DNA of 43,121 nucleotides from a bacterium (GTDB lineage: Bacteria; Patescibacteriota; Patescibacteriia; JACQRZ01), in contig JAUYIE010000005.1 of NCBI GenBank assembly GCA_030688365.1, forward strand, positions 69,764 through 112,884, in the 5' to 3' direction. Under the pieces are notes generated by a model. The model was given only the letters and a program-made list of their open reading frames with translations, did no database searches and had not been told where the DNA came from. This document shows positions 28,791 to 37,752 of the stretch, piece after piece. Position 1 is the first letter of the stretch. Each line of letters starts with the position of its first letter. Both the position numbers and the translations under genes were made by a program.

Positions 28791-30362
28791 CTACTCCAGA
28801 TCCTCCTTCTTTTCCCTCATAAAACTCCACCACTCTTCAGTGATTTCAATCAGCGCCTGTAACGGCAACTCAATCATGATGTCAAAAATAAACACAAATA
28901 CATTGACCCGCGATACATTGAACGATAACCACCTTCCCACTTGCACGATCGGCAACAAAAACGGATCAATAAACGCCACCCATAATGATGCTTTTGGTTT
29001 GAGAAGATACAATTCTGTCACGGAACGACGTAAAGTCACCCCGAAGAACGTAATCAGACAGAAGAAAAGGAAAAACACTACACCACTTGCGCCATTGAAA
29101 TGCAACGAATGCAATATCTTTGCAAGCAATGCAAACGATAGAAAAAATAATGCGAGATACAAAAGAGAAAAAATCACCCATAGAACAACTTTTTTCTTCT
29201 TTTCTCCGATCTTTTGGGGCACGAATATTTTTCGTGGTTCATCTTCATAAACGATTTCGTTGACTGCCTGCACTATACTGTCGGTGTTATCTTTATTGGG
29301 AAATTTTGCACTTAAAGTGATAACTGCAAGAAGTGCTGGCGGAAATAATACATTGATAAACAGTGGACCCCACATAATAAAACCAGCATGCAAAAGATCA
29401 TACGGCAATTCAATAATCAATCCCATTGTTATTTTCGTGATGAAGATGTAGACAAATGCGCGGATCGTACGGACATGCAATTTCCGCTTATATACATTGT
29501 AAAATCCATCACAAATACGACGTATCTCCTTTTCTAGCGCTTCTTTATCAGCAAAAATCGCTTCGCCATTACTTCGCAATACTGTGACAAGGACAACAAA
29601 CGGTATACGAAAACGACGATACGTTCCCATAAACTTTTTTTGCAATGGATGGCGAATATGAGTACGTATCTTTTTTCGCAGATCATAGCACTCCGCCGCC
29701 ATCTGATCCACTGGCATCGAGCCAGGTTTCGCCCAGTGCGGTGCCAATTTTTTAAGCAAAAAATATTCAAGTCGATGCACATCAGGTTTGAGCAAGATGC
29801 GATACACTGATATATACAGTTGTACACGTCGTGTTTTCTCATCAACTGTCGCACCCAATATGTTTGTCGTCGGATCCACCATCTGATTCATGGCATGCAC
29901 CAATGATTCCAACTCCTGCGTCGGTGCAAGCACTTCGTCAATCGCGCATGCCGCCATAAACAACACCCAATCTTGATCCTTGTCAGTAAGGATATGACGC
30001 ATACGCAACTGATCCAATACACCAAGATATTGATCCAGAACTTCCTTTATCTTATGTACGGTAGTGACCGGAATGGTCTGATTCCGAAAATATCGAGAAC
30101 GCACCAATTCCTTCACCAACCCCATCGCCATCTGTTCAGTTGGTTGTGTCAAAATGAACCGACGACCTAAGACGCGCCGTATCGCATGCTGACGTACCAA
30201 ATGTTCATCACGATATTCAACAATACCGCGTATTTTTTCATAATAAAAAGCAATGGCACTGACCGCATCATTGACGGTGACACTACCTTCTTCTGATGCT
30301 GTGATTTCTTCTTCTCGTACACGAGTAGAAAGAAACGAAGTAAATACGCTTGAAAATGCCAT
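28791..30362 (-). CDS. Conserved-looking multi-pass membrane protein of unknown function (523 aa)
   Basis: Long uninterrupted ORF, 2 nt from the downstream end of the nifS-like gene (same strand); several C-terminal TM segments; no recognised motif. Confidence 0.75.
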   Translation of the reverse strand: MAFSSVFTSFLSTRVREEEITASEEGSVTVNDAVSAIAFYYEKIRGIVEYRDEHLVRQHAIRRVLGRRFILTQPTEQMAMGLVKELVRSRYFRNQTIPVTTVHKIKEVLDQYLGVLDQLRMRHILTDKDQDWVLFMAACAIDEVLAPTQELESLVHAMNQMVDPTTNILGATVDEKTRRVQLYISVYRILLKPDVHRLEYFLLKKLAPHWAKPGSMPVDQMAAECYDLRKKIRTHIRHPLQKKFMGTYRRFRIPFVVLVTVLRSNGEAIFADKEALEKEIRRICDGFYNVYKRKLHVRTIRAFVYIFITKITMGLIIELPYDLLHAGFIMWGPLFINVLFPPALLAVITLSAKFPNKDNTDSIVQAVNEIVYEDEPRKIFVPQKIGEKKKKVVLWVIFSLLYLALFFLSFALLAKILHSLHFNGASGVVFFLFFCLITFFGVTLRRSVTELYLLKPKASLWVAFIDPFLLPIVQVGRWLSFNVSRVNVFVFIFDIMIELPLQALIEITEEWWSFMREKKEDLE

Positions 30363-31536: not shown

Positions 31537-33171
31537 TTAAAAACGTTTTGTATGATGATGAGAAATCTGGTCAAGAGACATATCATCATCGTCTTCTTCA
31601 TCATTTGATGCGGGCGTTGGTATAACAACCGTCGGTGCAGGAGAAGTCGGTGGTATAAGAGGACGGGTAGGCGAAGTAATACCCTTTTCTTTTTCTTCTC
31701 GTACGATCGCAAAACAATCACGACAATACACTGGTCGAACGCCATCGGGTTGAAAATTGAGGTACACGGTTTTCGCACAGCGTGTACACGTCCCTGAATA
31801 CGGGCGTTCTGGAGTTGGACCCGTCGGTTCCTCAAACTTTTTTATTTTCTTCTCGGGTTCAAGAGCGCTTGCCTCTTCATTCAGTGTTTCCGCCCAGCGC
31901 ATAATCTTTTCTTCAACGATATCTTTTGGCGTTGCATATCGCTCACGACTCACGCTTATCACTTTTTCCATATTATGACTTTTTTCTTCTTCACCCCACG
32001 GTGGTAATCCTGCCGCTGAAAATGGCTCGGATGCGATACCGTCTATCATGAGTTTAAGAAAAAAATTATATTTTGGCAGACTGACAAAATCTTCTTCTAT
32101 AAAACGCGGAGCAAATTCTTTTGCTAGATATTCGGCATCTGTCGCACCAACGCGAAAAGAAACAATCGTTCCAACGTTCCCAAATACCCCCGCACATACT
32201 TTTTCATCCAACTGCTCTATATATTGATGTGCCATAATCAAATTGAGTCGATATTTTCGTGCCTCTGATAAAATACTCGCAAAACTTTCCGTCGCGAAAT
32301 TTTGAAATTCATCTACATATAAATAAAAATCTTTTCTATCATCTTCTTTTGGTACATCAACACGCTCCATTGCCGCCATTTGAATTTTGGTAACCAACAT
32401 TCCTCCCAACAAACGACTATTATCTTCTCCGATTCGCCCCTTGGAAAGATTTACAATAAAGATCTTCCCTGAATCCATGATCTCACGAATACTGATTGTC
32501 GATTTGACTTGCCCGATGATATTGCGAATCACCGCCGCAGACAAAAACTGTCCGACTTTATTTTGGATAGGCGCAATTGCCTCCTGTGCAAATTTTTCTG
32601 TATATTTTCCAAATTCATCTACCCAAAATGATTTTACAATAGGATCTTTGATGTGCTCAATGACTTTCTTGCGAAACGCCTTATTGGAAAGCATTTGATT
32701 CACTGCCAACATCGTACTATCTTTGTAATCCAAAAGCGCAAGGAGAGTATTATTCAAAATATATTCCATACGTGCACTCCACACATCCGGCCATATCTTT
32801 TTAAACACCCCCATCATTGCCGATGCTACCAAGTGTTTTTGATTTTCATTAACGGTCTCAAGGATGTTAAATGCAACAGGATATTCAAAATCAGCTGGAT
32901 TAAAATATACGACATCATTCACACGGCTTGATGGAATAAAATCAAGCAATTTTTCTGCGGTATCTCCATGCGGGTCTATGTATGCCAGTCCATGACCTTC
33001 ATATATATCATCCATCACCATATTCTCAAGCATGACTGACTTTCCCATACCGGTTTTTCCTATCAAATACATGTGTCGTCGTCGGTCATCCCGTTTAATA
33101 CCAAAACGTCGCCGTTGATTACGGTAATTTGTTTCGGCAAATACAGTGATGTCGGGACGTTCGTCGTACAT
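31537..33171 (-). CDS. TraG/VirD4-like (type IV secretion-type) AAA ATPase with C-terminal zinc ribbon-like motif
   Basis: Walker A YLIGKTGMGKSVMLENM, AYIDPHGDTAEKLL, Walker B FYLYVDEFQNFATESFASILSEARKYRLNLIMAHQYIEQL; CTRCAKTVYLNFQPDGVRPVYCRDC. Confidence 0.88.
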   Translation of the reverse strand: MYDERPDITVFAETNYRNQRRRFGIKRDDRRRHMYLIGKTGMGKSVMLENMVMDDIYEGHGLAYIDPHGDTAEKLLDFIPSSRVNDVVYFNPADFEYPVAFNILETVNENQKHLVASAMMGVFKKIWPDVWSARMEYILNNTLLALLDYKDSTMLAVNQMLSNKAFRKKVIEHIKDPIVKSFWVDEFGKYTEKFAQEAIAPIQNKVGQFLSAAVIRNIIGQVKSTISIREIMDSGKIFIVNLSKGRIGEDNSRLLGGMLVTKIQMAAMERVDVPKEDDRKDFYLYVDEFQNFATESFASILSEARKYRLNLIMAHQYIEQLDEKVCAGVFGNVGTIVSFRVGATDAEYLAKEFAPRFIEEDFVSLPKYNFFLKLMIDGIASEPFSAAGLPPWGEEEKSHNMEKVISVSRERYATPKDIVEEKIMRWAETLNEEASALEPEKKIKKFEEPTGPTPERPYSGTCTRCAKTVYLNFQPDGVRPVYCRDCFAIVREEKEKGITSPTRPLIPPTSPAPTVVIPTPASNDEEDDDDMSLDQISHHHTKRF

Positions 33172-33185
33172 ATGATTGGGAAAGA

Positions 33186-34628
33186 TTATGCAAAAGGAAG
33201 ATTATCAGGTACGTCGGTTTCTGCAAAGGTTTTTTGCCGTTCAGGCTCCAATAAAGGAGTATTTACGGTCGGCTTTACCCTCTTTGGTTGTTGTGAGTCT
33301 ACACTGTCAGGACGCATTGGTAGAAAAAATGGCGGTTCCGCAGTCTTGATCTCTGACCGCTGGATCAGTGGCACCTTCATATCCATCATAGGGAAATGCC
33401 AGAGAGTCGCAAGTTCTTCAGTATTTAAGATGTATGCAGTGCCTCCTGACATGGAACGATTGACAAAGGCCTTAAATGTCCAATTTTGATTTCGGATAGA
33501 TGCATGTTTACGCCAAAAATAATCATACAATCGCTTATTATATTTAAAGGGTTTAAAACTGTTAATCAACGGCGAGCCAAACTGTCTATACGCCCCCAGA
33601 ATACCAGTGGACGCTCGTCCTTTGTTAAACACTGTTTTAGGGGCAATGTATGCAATACGTAATTTTCCAAAATATGCCGGTTTGGATGCTTTTATTTGAA
33701 TTTGTTCTACTGCCGATCGTTCTCCTGGTGATAGGTGCTGCATTTGAGATGCTGCTTCAGTTTTTTCCGCTGATTTTACTGGCACCCCCGCGCCAACCGC
33801 GCCAGGTGTCAACTGTGTCAACAGTATATTTGCGAGATCTCTACCAGTTGCGCCAAACTTTGCAAAGTGACCTTTTTTCGCTTCCGGTTCCTTGGCGCCT
33901 ATCAACGTGCGCACCAACTGTGCTGTTGTTTCTACCCAGGTATCATCTGTCGCTTGTAATACTATCTGTATCCACACTTCCTCACCATCTTTGATGGTAC
34001 CCAAAAATTCAAATAACGAATTCAAAGGATCTTTAAAAGTCGCATCCAACGAATGTTCAAACGCCGTATATGTTTTGAGAGGATATTGGTGTGGCCGTGC
34101 CAATCCTACTTCCGTCCCCCACGTTTCGTATGTTTCATCCGGATATTGTTGAGGTACGTGAGTAGTATAATCCGCAACTTCTACTACTTCTGCGTCAGGA
34201 TATTGAGCATAGATCGACGCCTCAATCACATCACGAAAAGACACAGGTGCATGAATAAAATACTGGATAAAGCCTCCACGACTAACCAACTCAACAGAAA
34301 AACTCTCCCCCACCTTTCCATCCCAATACTTTTCTTTCAATGTTCGAGACCCCAGCGCAGTCCCAGTCAAATGTGCAAAAATATTTTCCACCGCCTTGGG
34401 TGTTTGTTCTGTATTGCGAGGAACACGGATAGCTAATAACATCTTTGGTATTCTCGCGCTATATGAGCTCTGTATCTCATGCATCCACATATACCATAGC
34501 CCTTTAAAAATCACATATATCCATATCAAAAAACCACCATGTATAAACACATACCATAGTGTCGAAAAAGGACTGGAAAACTGCGCAATAAAATCACTAA
34601 ATTGTGCCACGTCAAGAGTGAGCTCCAT
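33186..34628 (-). CDS. Membrane protein of unknown function adjacent to TraG/VirD4-like ATPase
   Basis: N-terminal TM region then large soluble part (IRVPRNTEQTPKAVENIFAHL..., PVSFRDVIEASIYAQYPDAEVVEVADYTTHVP); 14 nt upstream of the ATPase gene, same strand. Confidence 0.8.
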   Translation of the reverse strand: MELTLDVAQFSDFIAQFSSPFSTLWYVFIHGGFLIWIYVIFKGLWYMWMHEIQSSYSARIPKMLLAIRVPRNTEQTPKAVENIFAHLTGTALGSRTLKEKYWDGKVGESFSVELVSRGGFIQYFIHAPVSFRDVIEASIYAQYPDAEVVEVADYTTHVPQQYPDETYETWGTEVGLARPHQYPLKTYTAFEHSLDATFKDPLNSLFEFLGTIKDGEEVWIQIVLQATDDTWVETTAQLVRTLIGAKEPEAKKGHFAKFGATGRDLANILLTQLTPGAVGAGVPVKSAEKTEAASQMQHLSPGERSAVEQIQIKASKPAYFGKLRIAYIAPKTVFNKGRASTGILGAYRQFGSPLINSFKPFKYNKRLYDYFWRKHASIRNQNWTFKAFVNRSMSGGTAYILNTEELATLWHFPMMDMKVPLIQRSEIKTAEPPFFLPMRPDSVDSQQPKRVKPTVNTPLLEPERQKTFAETDVPDNLPFA

Positions 34629-34653: not shown

Positions 34654-34683
34654 AAAAAAAACAATGTAAAGAAAGTAGTTTAC
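34654..34683 (-). terminator. Candidate terminator downstream of secF
   Basis: On the minus strand GTAAA-N8-TTTAC followed by a run of eight T; begins in the secF stop codon. Confidence 0.35.
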
Positions 34684-35579
34684 GTGCGGTGTTTTATTCG
34701 TCGTGTGTAATTATGCCACACAACCAATAATGGTGAAGCGACAAAGATAGATGAATATGTACCTACCGCAACACCCAAAAGGAGCGCCAATGCAAAATAC
34801 TGCAACGTTTCTCCTCCGAATAAAATTATAGCCAATAATACCAAAATAACTGTCGCAGACATATTTAACGAACGCATGATTGTCTGATTCAGCGACATAC
34901 TCACTACATCCTCAAATTGCCCCCCACGTTTAAGAAGATTTTCACGAATACGATCAAAAACAACGATCGTGTCATTGACAGAATACCCCAATACCGTCAA
35001 AAATGCCGCGATAAAGGCCGCAGTGATCTCAATACCGGCAAACTGTCCCAGCACTGAAAAAATACCAATGACAAAAATGACATCATGAAGCAAGGCCACG
35101 ATAGCAATCACGCCATATTTCCAGGATGCAACCGTGTGCGACACCTTACGAAATACGTAACTGATATATGCCAAAATCAATACTAATGCTATACCGATGG
35201 CCCATGTGGATTTCGTACGCAATTCATTACCAATCACCGGCCCAATAGAATCAAAACTGTTTTCGGTGAGATCTCCTGATGCATGCAACGCATCAATGAT
35301 GGCCTGATGTATCGGTTGATCCACTTCTTTAAAACGCAAGATGACTCCTTTTTCACCTGAACCTTTCACATCAACATCACCAATGTTGAGGGGCTCTATC
35401 TGACTTCTGATTGTATCCAAAGATGGAACGTCTTGAGCGTATTCTACTTCAAGTATACTTCCACCGGTAAAATCAATACCAAAACGTAATCCCCATACGG
35501 AAATAGCAATCACTGCCAATACAAACATCACGGTAGAGAATGTGAGCCAGATGCGTCGAGTTTTGACAATATTTATCAT
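34680..35579 (-). CDS. secF: Protein translocase subunit SecF
   Basis: GLRFGIDFTGGSILEVEYAQ, FIAAFLTVLGYSVNDTIVVFDRIRENL, SMSLNQTIMRSLNMSATVILVLLAIILFGGETLQYFALALLLGVAVGTYSSIFVASPLLV. Start set at MINIVKTRR; the ORF track starts at 35630. Confidence 0.95.
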   Translation of the reverse strand: MINIVKTRRIWLTFSTVMFVLAVIAISVWGLRFGIDFTGGSILEVEYAQDVPSLDTIRSQIEPLNIGDVDVKGSGEKGVILRFKEVDQPIHQAIIDALHASGDLTENSFDSIGPVIGNELRTKSTWAIGIALVLILAYISYVFRKVSHTVASWKYGVIAIVALLHDVIFVIGIFSVLGQFAGIEITAAFIAAFLTVLGYSVNDTIVVFDRIRENLLKRGGQFEDVVSMSLNQTIMRSLNMSATVILVLLAIILFGGETLQYFALALLLGVAVGTYSSIFVASPLLVVWHNYTRRIKHRT

Positions 35580-35592
35580 AGAAATACAAAAA

Positions 35593-37752
35593 TTAGGTAA
35601 CGGGAATGTTCTTCTTAGAAGGCCCGCCAAACAACCATGTGTGCTTACCTATTTTCCATCCAGCGGTCAAACGTAGTAACTGACGTGATACAGTAATGGC
35701 AGAAAATAGACTAAGTACAATACCAACTGACAAGATCAATGCAAATCCTTTAATCAAACTGGTGGTGAATGCATACAAAACAATTGAAGTAATCAATGAT
35801 GAGACATTACTATCACGGATAGAAGTCCATGCACGTGTAAACCCATCACGAATTGCAGATTCTAAAGTCTTTCCGGCACGAAGCTCTTCTTTCATACGCT
35901 CAAAAATCAAAATATTTGCATCCACTGCTATACCGATAGAAAGAATAAAGCCAGCAATACCCGAAAGCGTCAACGTGACGCCAAATACCTTCAAAACTCC
36001 AAGAGTCAATGCGCTATAAATACACAAGGCAATAACAGCAAGTACTCCTGGAATGCGATAATATACAATCATAAATAACGCCACCAGTAACAATCCAATA
36101 CATCCTGCAAAAATACTTTTTTGGAGAGATTCAACCCCCAAACTAGCACCAATTGTTTTTTGACTGATTAATGACACTGGCACCGGCAATGCACCGGCAT
36201 TGAGACGTTGCGCCAGCAACTTTGCCTCTTTGTTGCTCATATTACCTTGAATCACTGCACTGCCTCCAATAATTTCGCCATTGACATTAGGAGCGTACAT
36301 ATCTTGATCGTCAATTATGCTGTCCCCATTTGAGTCAATGATTGATTTTCCATCTAAGAAAATACCCAGTGGTTTTCCAATATTGCGTTTAGTGATTTCT
36401 TGAAAGAGTTTTGTCCCTTCATCATTAAAATCAAGACCTACCTGTACCTGTCCGCTTTGTTGATCTGTCGTGACAAATGCTTTCTTCAAATGTTTTCCTG
36501 TCAGACCTGTTGAGAGAAAATATTCAGGTGGTGGCAATATATCTGCCGGTGTTTTTTTTGTAAAAAGTATTCGCGCGATATGATACTCACTGACAGGACG
36601 TTCCCCCGTCTTCAAAATTATATGAAAACCAAAATCTGTTTCTACGACGTCTGATATTTGATTATCTGAAAGTGCAAATGCTGCGGTTTCAAACGGTGGC
36701 ACCATCATACCCATTGAAAAATAACCAAGATTACCACCGCCAGGCGCTGAACCAATATCATCCGAATTTTTGGTTGCTATATCGGCAAAATTTTCCGGAG
36801 TCAACATTTTTTGTAATGTTTCCGCCAAGGTCTTTGCTTCATCCTTTGTACGATCTTTTGTACATCCAGTGGTATCTTTGTAACAAATCAAAATATGACT
36901 TGCCGACATCTCATGTTCGTCTGTATCACGCTTTTCAAGCAACTTCACAATCTGTTCACTATTTGGCGATTCATACAAGGTCGGTGAAATCGTACCAGGA
37001 TCAATGGCTTGTACAAACGGAAGCAATCCCGCATCTTGACTGTTATTATTAACCCATCCAATATCTCCTCCATTTTCTTTGGTAGCAGAATCTTCTGAAT
37101 ATTGTTTTACAATGGCGCTAAAGTCAGCATCTTTAACAAGAGACGCTTGAAGCGCTTCTTTTGCACGTTGGTTTGCAATATTATTATAACCCTCCATTTG
37201 AAGCTTTTGATCTTCTGTCAATTCCGTCGCACGATCGCTTCCTAACGCAGCAGGGTTTTGCTCTTTAAACTCCAACAATGTGCGTTCCCCGATTTGCGCA
37301 ATAGTCTTTGCAGGATCAGAAATACCGGCAAGTTCTACAATCACCCTATACATACCATTAGTTTTGGAAGTCTGGACGATGGGCTCTGATACACCAAAAA
37401 TATTGACCCGTCGTTCTACAACATCCCGAACACCTTCTAGCGCTGAACCACGGTCTCCGGACGCAATGTCTTTCATATCGGCCTCATACACCAAATGCGT
37501 CCCTCCTTGTAGATCAAGGCCAAGACGAAAATCACGCGGTGGCCATGATGACCAATCGATCGCCGGTAATGTCAGTGATATACCCTTTTCATGGAGACCA
37601 TTATTGATATAGTCACGATTTGAGTTGTACCACCCCATGCCATTATAAAGAGTGACAACAAGTGCCAACATTACCAATGCAAAAATGTTCCATCGAAGCT
37701 TTCCCCGCCCTCTCGGGCGAAACAGTCGTCCAATTCCCATAAAAACATTCAT
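35593..37752 (-). CDS. secD: Protein translocase subunit SecD with inserted parvulin-type PPIase region
   Basis: FRLGLDLQGGTHLVYEADM, RRVNIFGVSEPIVQ, IAGFILSIGIAVDANILIFERMKEELRAGKTLESAIRDGFTRAWTSIRDSNVSSLITSIVLY; insert SASHILICYKD...FADIATKNSDDIGSAPGGGNLGYFSMGMMVPPFETAAFALSDNQISDVVETDFGFHIILKTGERP. Confidence 0.95.
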   Translation of the reverse strand: MNVFMGIGRLFRPRGRGKLRWNIFALVMLALVVTLYNGMGWYNSNRDYINNGLHEKGISLTLPAIDWSSWPPRDFRLGLDLQGGTHLVYEADMKDIASGDRGSALEGVRDVVERRVNIFGVSEPIVQTSKTNGMYRVIVELAGISDPAKTIAQIGERTLLEFKEQNPAALGSDRATELTEDQKLQMEGYNNIANQRAKEALQASLVKDADFSAIVKQYSEDSATKENGGDIGWVNNNSQDAGLLPFVQAIDPGTISPTLYESPNSEQIVKLLEKRDTDEHEMSASHILICYKDTTGCTKDRTKDEAKTLAETLQKMLTPENFADIATKNSDDIGSAPGGGNLGYFSMGMMVPPFETAAFALSDNQISDVVETDFGFHIILKTGERPVSEYHIARILFTKKTPADILPPPEYFLSTGLTGKHLKKAFVTTDQQSGQVQVGLDFNDEGTKLFQEITKRNIGKPLGIFLDGKSIIDSNGDSIIDDQDMYAPNVNGEIIGGSAVIQGNMSNKEAKLLAQRLNAGALPVPVSLISQKTIGASLGVESLQKSIFAGCIGLLLVALFMIVYYRIPGVLAVIALCIYSALTLGVLKVFGVTLTLSGIAGFILSIGIAVDANILIFERMKEELRAGKTLESAIRDGFTRAWTSIRDSNVSSLITSIVLYAFTTSLIKGFALILSVGIVLSLFSAITVSRQLLRLTAGWKIGKHTWLFGGPSKKNIPVT

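Follow-up and report, generated by a model that had tools for sequence, protein, structure and literature searches.

Can a folding enzyme be carried by the protein-export motor itself, and what would it do there? The question is raised by a secD gene in a stretch of 43,121 nucleotides (the window, meaning the whole stretch of DNA analysed), for which a preliminary description had proposed a parvulin built into the periplasmic P1 region of SecD and had named several checks, namely searches with Rotamase and SecD profiles, an AlphaFold model, a survey of SecD lengths and a search for stand-alone PrsA or PpiC in the same genome. To our knowledge, the folding helpers that contact SecDF or SecYEG elsewhere are separate proteins in every case. 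Profiles, 42 orthologues and an AlphaFold model all bore out the proposed architecture, which is regarded as firm.

The secD gene and its domain layout

The protein encoded in the window reaches 367 bits against the NCBIfam equivalog model TIGR01129 (secD, cut-off 244), and its P1 region and six-helix RND-type membrane domain, together with the adjacent secF, give it the architecture of a SecD, for which stimulation of Sec export by the proton motive force is predicted from the family. The framework of the locus is as follows.

35593..37752, reverse strand: secD-parvulin fusion gene, 719 aa, open reading frame intact, recognised by TIGR01129 and Pfam domains
37255..37434, reverse strand: SecD_1st (Pfam PF21760), residues 107-166, the first part of the P1 region, with final strand RTLLEFKE
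36181..36507, reverse strand: SecDF_P1_head (Pfam PF22599, E=2.1e-26), residues 416-524
35668..36174, reverse strand: SecD_SecF_C (Pfam PF02355), residues 527-695, the C-terminal membrane domain
34680..35630, reverse strand: secF, adjoining secD downstream (Pfam PF02355, E=1.7e-55; TIGR00966 over its cut-off)

The listed TTG start of secF overlaps secD, and an ATG at about 35579 is the likelier start. Between SecD_1st and SecDF_P1_head, Pfam places the parvulin insert, in which Rotamase_3 matches two stretches, the better at residues 267-380 (E=4.4e-39); searched by itself, the insert matches Rotamase with E=1e-40. The profile search thus returned a parvulin and a SecD above its cut-off in one polypeptide, as the preliminary description had anticipated.

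Directly downstream of secF lies a block at 31537-34628, which includes a TrwB/TraG-like coupling ATPase (31537-33171) that has a zinc finger and, beside it, a 480-aa protein (33186-34628) without a Pfam match; a 523-aa open reading frame at 28791-30362, which adjoins a class-V aminotransferase, likewise gave no Pfam match.

Two parvulin folds in the insert

The insert comprises two parvulin folds, of which the second (D2) is canonical and the first (D1) diverged, and its elements are located as follows.

36925..37215, reverse strand: D1, degenerate parvulin core spanning helix 1 through strand 4 at residues 180-276 (Rotamase_3)
36595..36912, reverse strand: D2, complete canonical parvulin, residues 281-386 (Rotamase_3 and 2jzv matches)
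36895..36897, reverse strand: His286 (ASHIL), first conserved parvulin histidine, invariant in 42/42 D2 copies
36862..36885, reverse strand: Cys290-Cys297, candidate disulfide in the loop between strand 1 and helix 1 of D2, with paired presence and absence
36622..36624, reverse strand: His377 (FGFH), second conserved parvulin histidine, invariant in 42/42 D2 copies
36559..36591, reverse strand: extra strand 1, residues 388-398, with EYHIARILF at 389-397, predicted to complete D1 (AF2 strand and alignment to permuted SecDs)

D2, which the preliminary description had correctly placed at 36595-36909, matches Rotamase_3 completely, over profile positions 2-111 of 116 (102.8 bits, E=1.1e-29, cut-off 22.5). 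Its sequence match in the PDB was the PrsA-PPIase structure 2jzv (E=3.5e-16), and a Foldseek search with the whole AF2 model aligned 2jzv over D2 with a TM-score of 0.85 by target length (105 columns, 41% identity), so that a parvulin fold is predicted for this domain. The two histidines, whose presence had also been pointed out beforehand, correspond to His146 and His239 of S. aureus PrsA (PMC2678132). Phe374 and Gly375 are likewise invariant in all 42 copies, and Gly340, Leu342, Met350 and Phe354 are near-invariant. Both cysteines occur in 39 of the 42 copies and both are missing in the other three, which belong to one clade; they are predicted to form a disulfide in a loop whose equivalent contributes to substrate binding in PrsA (PMC2678132). 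VKOR, a possible partner for the pair, was detected in 6/9 family genomes, and none was found in the window's genome, where absences are provisional (see below).

Taken alone, D1 matches Rotamase_3 with 40.1 bits (E=3e-10, profile positions 36-114), which exceeds the cut-off, and its second active-site histidine is replaced (NSEQIV). It had been described as a degenerate half of a parvulin upstream of D2; degenerate it is, being diverged and lacking the second histidine, but it is not a half, as its core is complete from helix 1 through to strand 4. In the AF2 model, which was built from 24 sequences and has a whole-chain pTM of 0.50, residues 181-400 mostly reach a pLDDT of 91-98 (D1 mostly 91-97), and the insert fits two folds. 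Since orthologues retain both copies at 45-72% protein identity, the pair is not a product of chance.

Predicted role at the translocon exit

We assign a probability of roughly 0.7 to the reading that the insert is a prolyl isomerase or chaperone module built into the SecDF motor at the exit of the translocon, which would probably make it a folding helper coupled to the export gate rather than a separate protein. With the parvulins placed next to the P1 head, the emerging chain may be expected to be isomerised or held at the exit. The module is predicted to face outward beside the SecY exit, where P1 would capture the emerging chain and move with the proton-driven cycle, D2 would bind the chain and isomerise prolyl bonds, and D1 might act as a peptide-binding or spacing scaffold. 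Such a module would take over the job that free PrsA, PpiD or SurA performs elsewhere, and, in cells whose genomes are very small, the fusion would keep each motor supplied with a single foldase of its own. In E. coli, SurA binds periplasmic regions of SecDF-YidC close to the SecYEG exit (PMC9987972), while PpiD-YfgM binds SecYEG and PpiD promotes translocation (PMC9643414).

Enzymatic activity of D2 is suggested by its sequence, although the histidine pair alone is no proof of it, because in human Pin1, according to work cited in PMC2678132, the conserved histidines are not essential for activity. The same dispensability would agree with a different role, in which the parvulin folds act without catalysis, as chaperone or capture modules that make the P1 head larger and retain the emerging chain; the loss of the second histidine and the fast drift of D1 fit this role, and the importance of the parvulin domains of PpiD has been questioned in work cited in PMC9643414. 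We nevertheless consider purely non-catalytic modules rather unlikely, as D2 and nearly all single permuted domains of the relatives retain both histidines, and only one copy decays in the double-insert proteins, which suggests that one active site is under selection. In a comparison with one genus-mate, for which synonymous sites were saturated, protein identity amounted to 0.88 in the N-terminal part of SecD, 0.79 in the P1 head and membrane part, 0.73 in D2 and 0.47 in D1; by these sequence identities, D2 appears to be held nearly as tightly as SecD itself, whereas D1 drifts.

Genome-wide checks were made as family searches, in which no parvulin outside SecD was found in the window's genome or in ten members of its family; the window's genome is 91% complete, which renders absences there provisional, and two of the relatives are 99-100% complete. 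The search for stand-alone PrsA or PpiC thus leaves SecD as the only parvulin detected in this 11-genome family, and accordingly no free parvulin does the foldase job there. SecD is not the sole exported isomerase of the window's genome, because a membrane-anchored FKBP is also encoded; no cyclophilin match was obtained in it. Free parvulins that combine a membrane anchor with a SurA-like N-terminal region occur in other families of the class, and the examined ones are permuted. A Pfam scan of SecD fusions gave no SurA_N match. PrsA, for its part, is a free secreted lipoprotein with N- and C-terminal flanking domains, and the domain described here lies inside SecD.

Probable circular permutation and nesting

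The SecDs of the class, when compared, fall into two main types. Type A, to which the window's protein belongs, is about 670-760 aa long and carries an additional segment resembling strand 1 besides D1 and D2; type B, of about 540-660 aa, has a single parvulin whose strand 1 (xSHIL[IF]) comes after strand 4 (FG[YFW]H). Where a type-B insert has a strand-4 motif (29 cases), strand 1 comes after it in 28 and before it in none. A rotated profile, with strand 1 at the end, outscored the canonical profile in 25/29 type-B SecDs and 11/12 stand-alone parvulins of the class, against 0/7 canonical parvulins of other phyla and 0/9 canonical D2 copies of the single-chain SecDF group, and it outscored all 20 shuffled controls in both permuted sets. 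Owing to the variable linker, the rotated profile gains next to nothing over the core by itself, and the support for permutation therefore comes from the comparison of profiles, not from the absolute score.

In the AF2 model of one type-B SecD (L057), a helix at 147-171 is followed by further helices, a strand at 197-202, a helix at 208-217 and strands at 233-243 and 250-259, with a pLDDT of about 87-97 over most of the insert; by this predicted order of elements its parvulin is a circular permutant. Foldseek with the model of the permuted type returned SecDF/RND only, among the matches listed. The permutation is not confined to SecD, since stand-alone membrane-anchored parvulins of the SurA_N type in the same class (L155-L164) also have strand 1 after strand 4.

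Permutants usually arise when a domain is duplicated in tandem and then truncated; as the two-domain form is such a tandem, the strand-1 motif after strand 4 could be the remnant of a truncated second parvulin, with SecD's own strand LLEFKE filling the place of strand 1 and no permutation at all. This is improbable: single-domain SecDs carry the motif and its histidine after strand 4 in the 28 inserts and before it in none, stand-alone parvulins show the identical order without any SecD strand, the L057 model runs from helix 1 to strand 4 and then to the final strand, and the rotated profile prevails in the permuted sets and in no canonical control. A circularly permuted topology is well supported.

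As to the window's protein, strand pairing was read from the secondary structure of its AF2 model, in which two strands are unbroken: residues 265-289 link strand 4 of D1 to strand 1 of D2, and residues 375-398 (pLDDT 95-97 in the second half, 388-398) link strand 4 of D2 to EYHIARILF, the segment that aligns with strand 1 of the permuted single-domain SecDs. On the simplest reading of the model, an antiparallel ribbon runs through D1 and D2, and residues 388-398 are strand 1 of D1. The model and the relatives together suggest that D1 is circularly permuted and that D2 sits in a hairpin between strand 4 of D1 and its displaced strand 1; D2 would thus be nested inside D1, as D1 would be completed by a strand beyond D2. 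D2 has the canonical topology, with strand 1 first, and D1, judged from the model, would not. The "half" parvulin of the preliminary description is accordingly replaced by a domain that is probably complete but permuted. A parvulin-core tree had too few columns to resolve the order of events, and group identities were used instead, by which D1 is closest to the permuted single domains (0.31 between D1 and these, 0.24 between D1 and D2). It is possible, albeit tentative, that SecDF here holds a natural permuted parvulin with a canonical one nested in it, and that proton-driven movement of P1 directly presents the exported chain to the isomerase, giving an energy-coupled foldase.

Distribution of the fusion

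The fusion had been attributed to a single lineage; it is real, but it is no oddity of one lineage, being found in at least 126/144 sampled genomes of the window's class within the Patescibacteria (a hand count of SecDs matched continuously through parvulin and P1 head). A few further SecDs of the class, L049, L052, L151 and L152 among them, are fused with an altered layout. In a sample of 380 genomes across the phylum, fused SecDs occur in at least 31/34 members of the window's class and in at least 19 genomes beyond it. Outside the class, 11 long SecDs (810-1109 aa) combine a canonical D2 with a D1-like stretch, and ten of them are at least 1025 aa long with SecF included in the chain; two type-B SecDs were also read there. 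Single-chain SecD+SecF proteins with a parvulin insert (L135-L138, L140-L143, L148 and L149, 1025-1109 aa) belong to another part of the phylum, and a type-A SecD of Magasanikbacteria with a long additional stretch (L068, 1030 aa) may also be a single-chain SecDF. Named carriers are Uhrbacteria, Falkowbacteria, Magasanikbacteria, Buchananbacteria, Kerfeldbacteria, Moranbacteria and one Gracilibacteria bin, most of which we presume to belong to the GTDB class ABY1. Plain SecDs occur in Nomurabacteria, Amesbacteria, Gastranaerophilales and others, and in 12 genomes outside the phylum no parvulin insert was found in SecD, the P1 head being the sole match. A contig filed as a Lysobacteraceae MAG (L055) encodes a type-B SecD-parvulin of clearly patescibacterial kind and is probably mis-binned.

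The survey of SecD lengths showed about 230-260 residues at the insert site of the fused type versus about 13-70 in plain SecDs. An ordinary P1 subdomain misread as a parvulin is ruled out by this length, by the Rotamase match of the insert alone and by the match of the model to the PrsA-PPIase structure, even though the insert does lie within the P1 region. A chimeric assembly, or a fusion that arose recently and only once in a single metagenome bin, for which the fragmented assembly (30 contigs) might speak, is likewise ruled out by the genome survey, as the architecture recurs in relatives that come from dozens of families and from independent studies, with an intact frame and purifying selection.

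The module is dispensable, because cases of absence or decay occur: no SecD/SecF match was obtained in two genomes of the same class (G023 and G039, 98-99% complete), a relative (L051) has a plain SecD, and in two SecDs of 633 aa (L146 and L150) the insert is about as long as a parvulin but shows none of the hallmark motifs, and is apparently a parvulin that has decayed completely and persists as a spacer. G023 also gave no parvulin match, and G039 has kept a free permuted parvulin. In a SecD tree built without the insert, single- and double-insert types are interleaved with weak deep forks; the window's protein was left out of it, its strand motif falling outside the script's pattern.

Relation to known systems and significance

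The best whole-model matches of the window's SecD are SecD/SecDF structures (Thermus thermophilus SecDF, 3aqp and 5yhf; E. coli SecD), with which it shares all SecD domains and the adjacent secF, and known SecDs have a short linker at the site where about 230-250 residues of parvulin are inserted here. D2 shares its fold and histidine pair with S. aureus PrsA (2jzv, the 41% identity given above), but PrsA is a separate lipoprotein, whereas D2 is embedded in a subunit of the membrane motor and has the conserved cysteine pair. PpiD and SurA similarly bring parvulin domains near the SecYEG exit, although as separate proteins, while the link to SecD is covalent. The stand-alone parvulins L155-L164 share the permuted order of the single-domain inserts and differ in being unfused to SecD and in having a SurA-like N-terminal domain. 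A full-text search of open-licence papers found no description of a SecD-parvulin fusion or of a circularly permuted parvulin, and the fusion may already be listed without comment in family databases. Both families are known; what is new is their combination and the permutation.

These results bear on the hand-over of exported proteins from the Sec channel to folding helpers. A covalent SecD-foldase fixes position and stoichiometry, and structures or crosslinks could therefore locate the action of the parvulin on the emerging chain. Meanwhile, an apparently natural circular permutant of parvulin would be of use in studies of folding and evolution, and the fusion itself is a common trait of a large uncultured bacterial class with reduced genomes.
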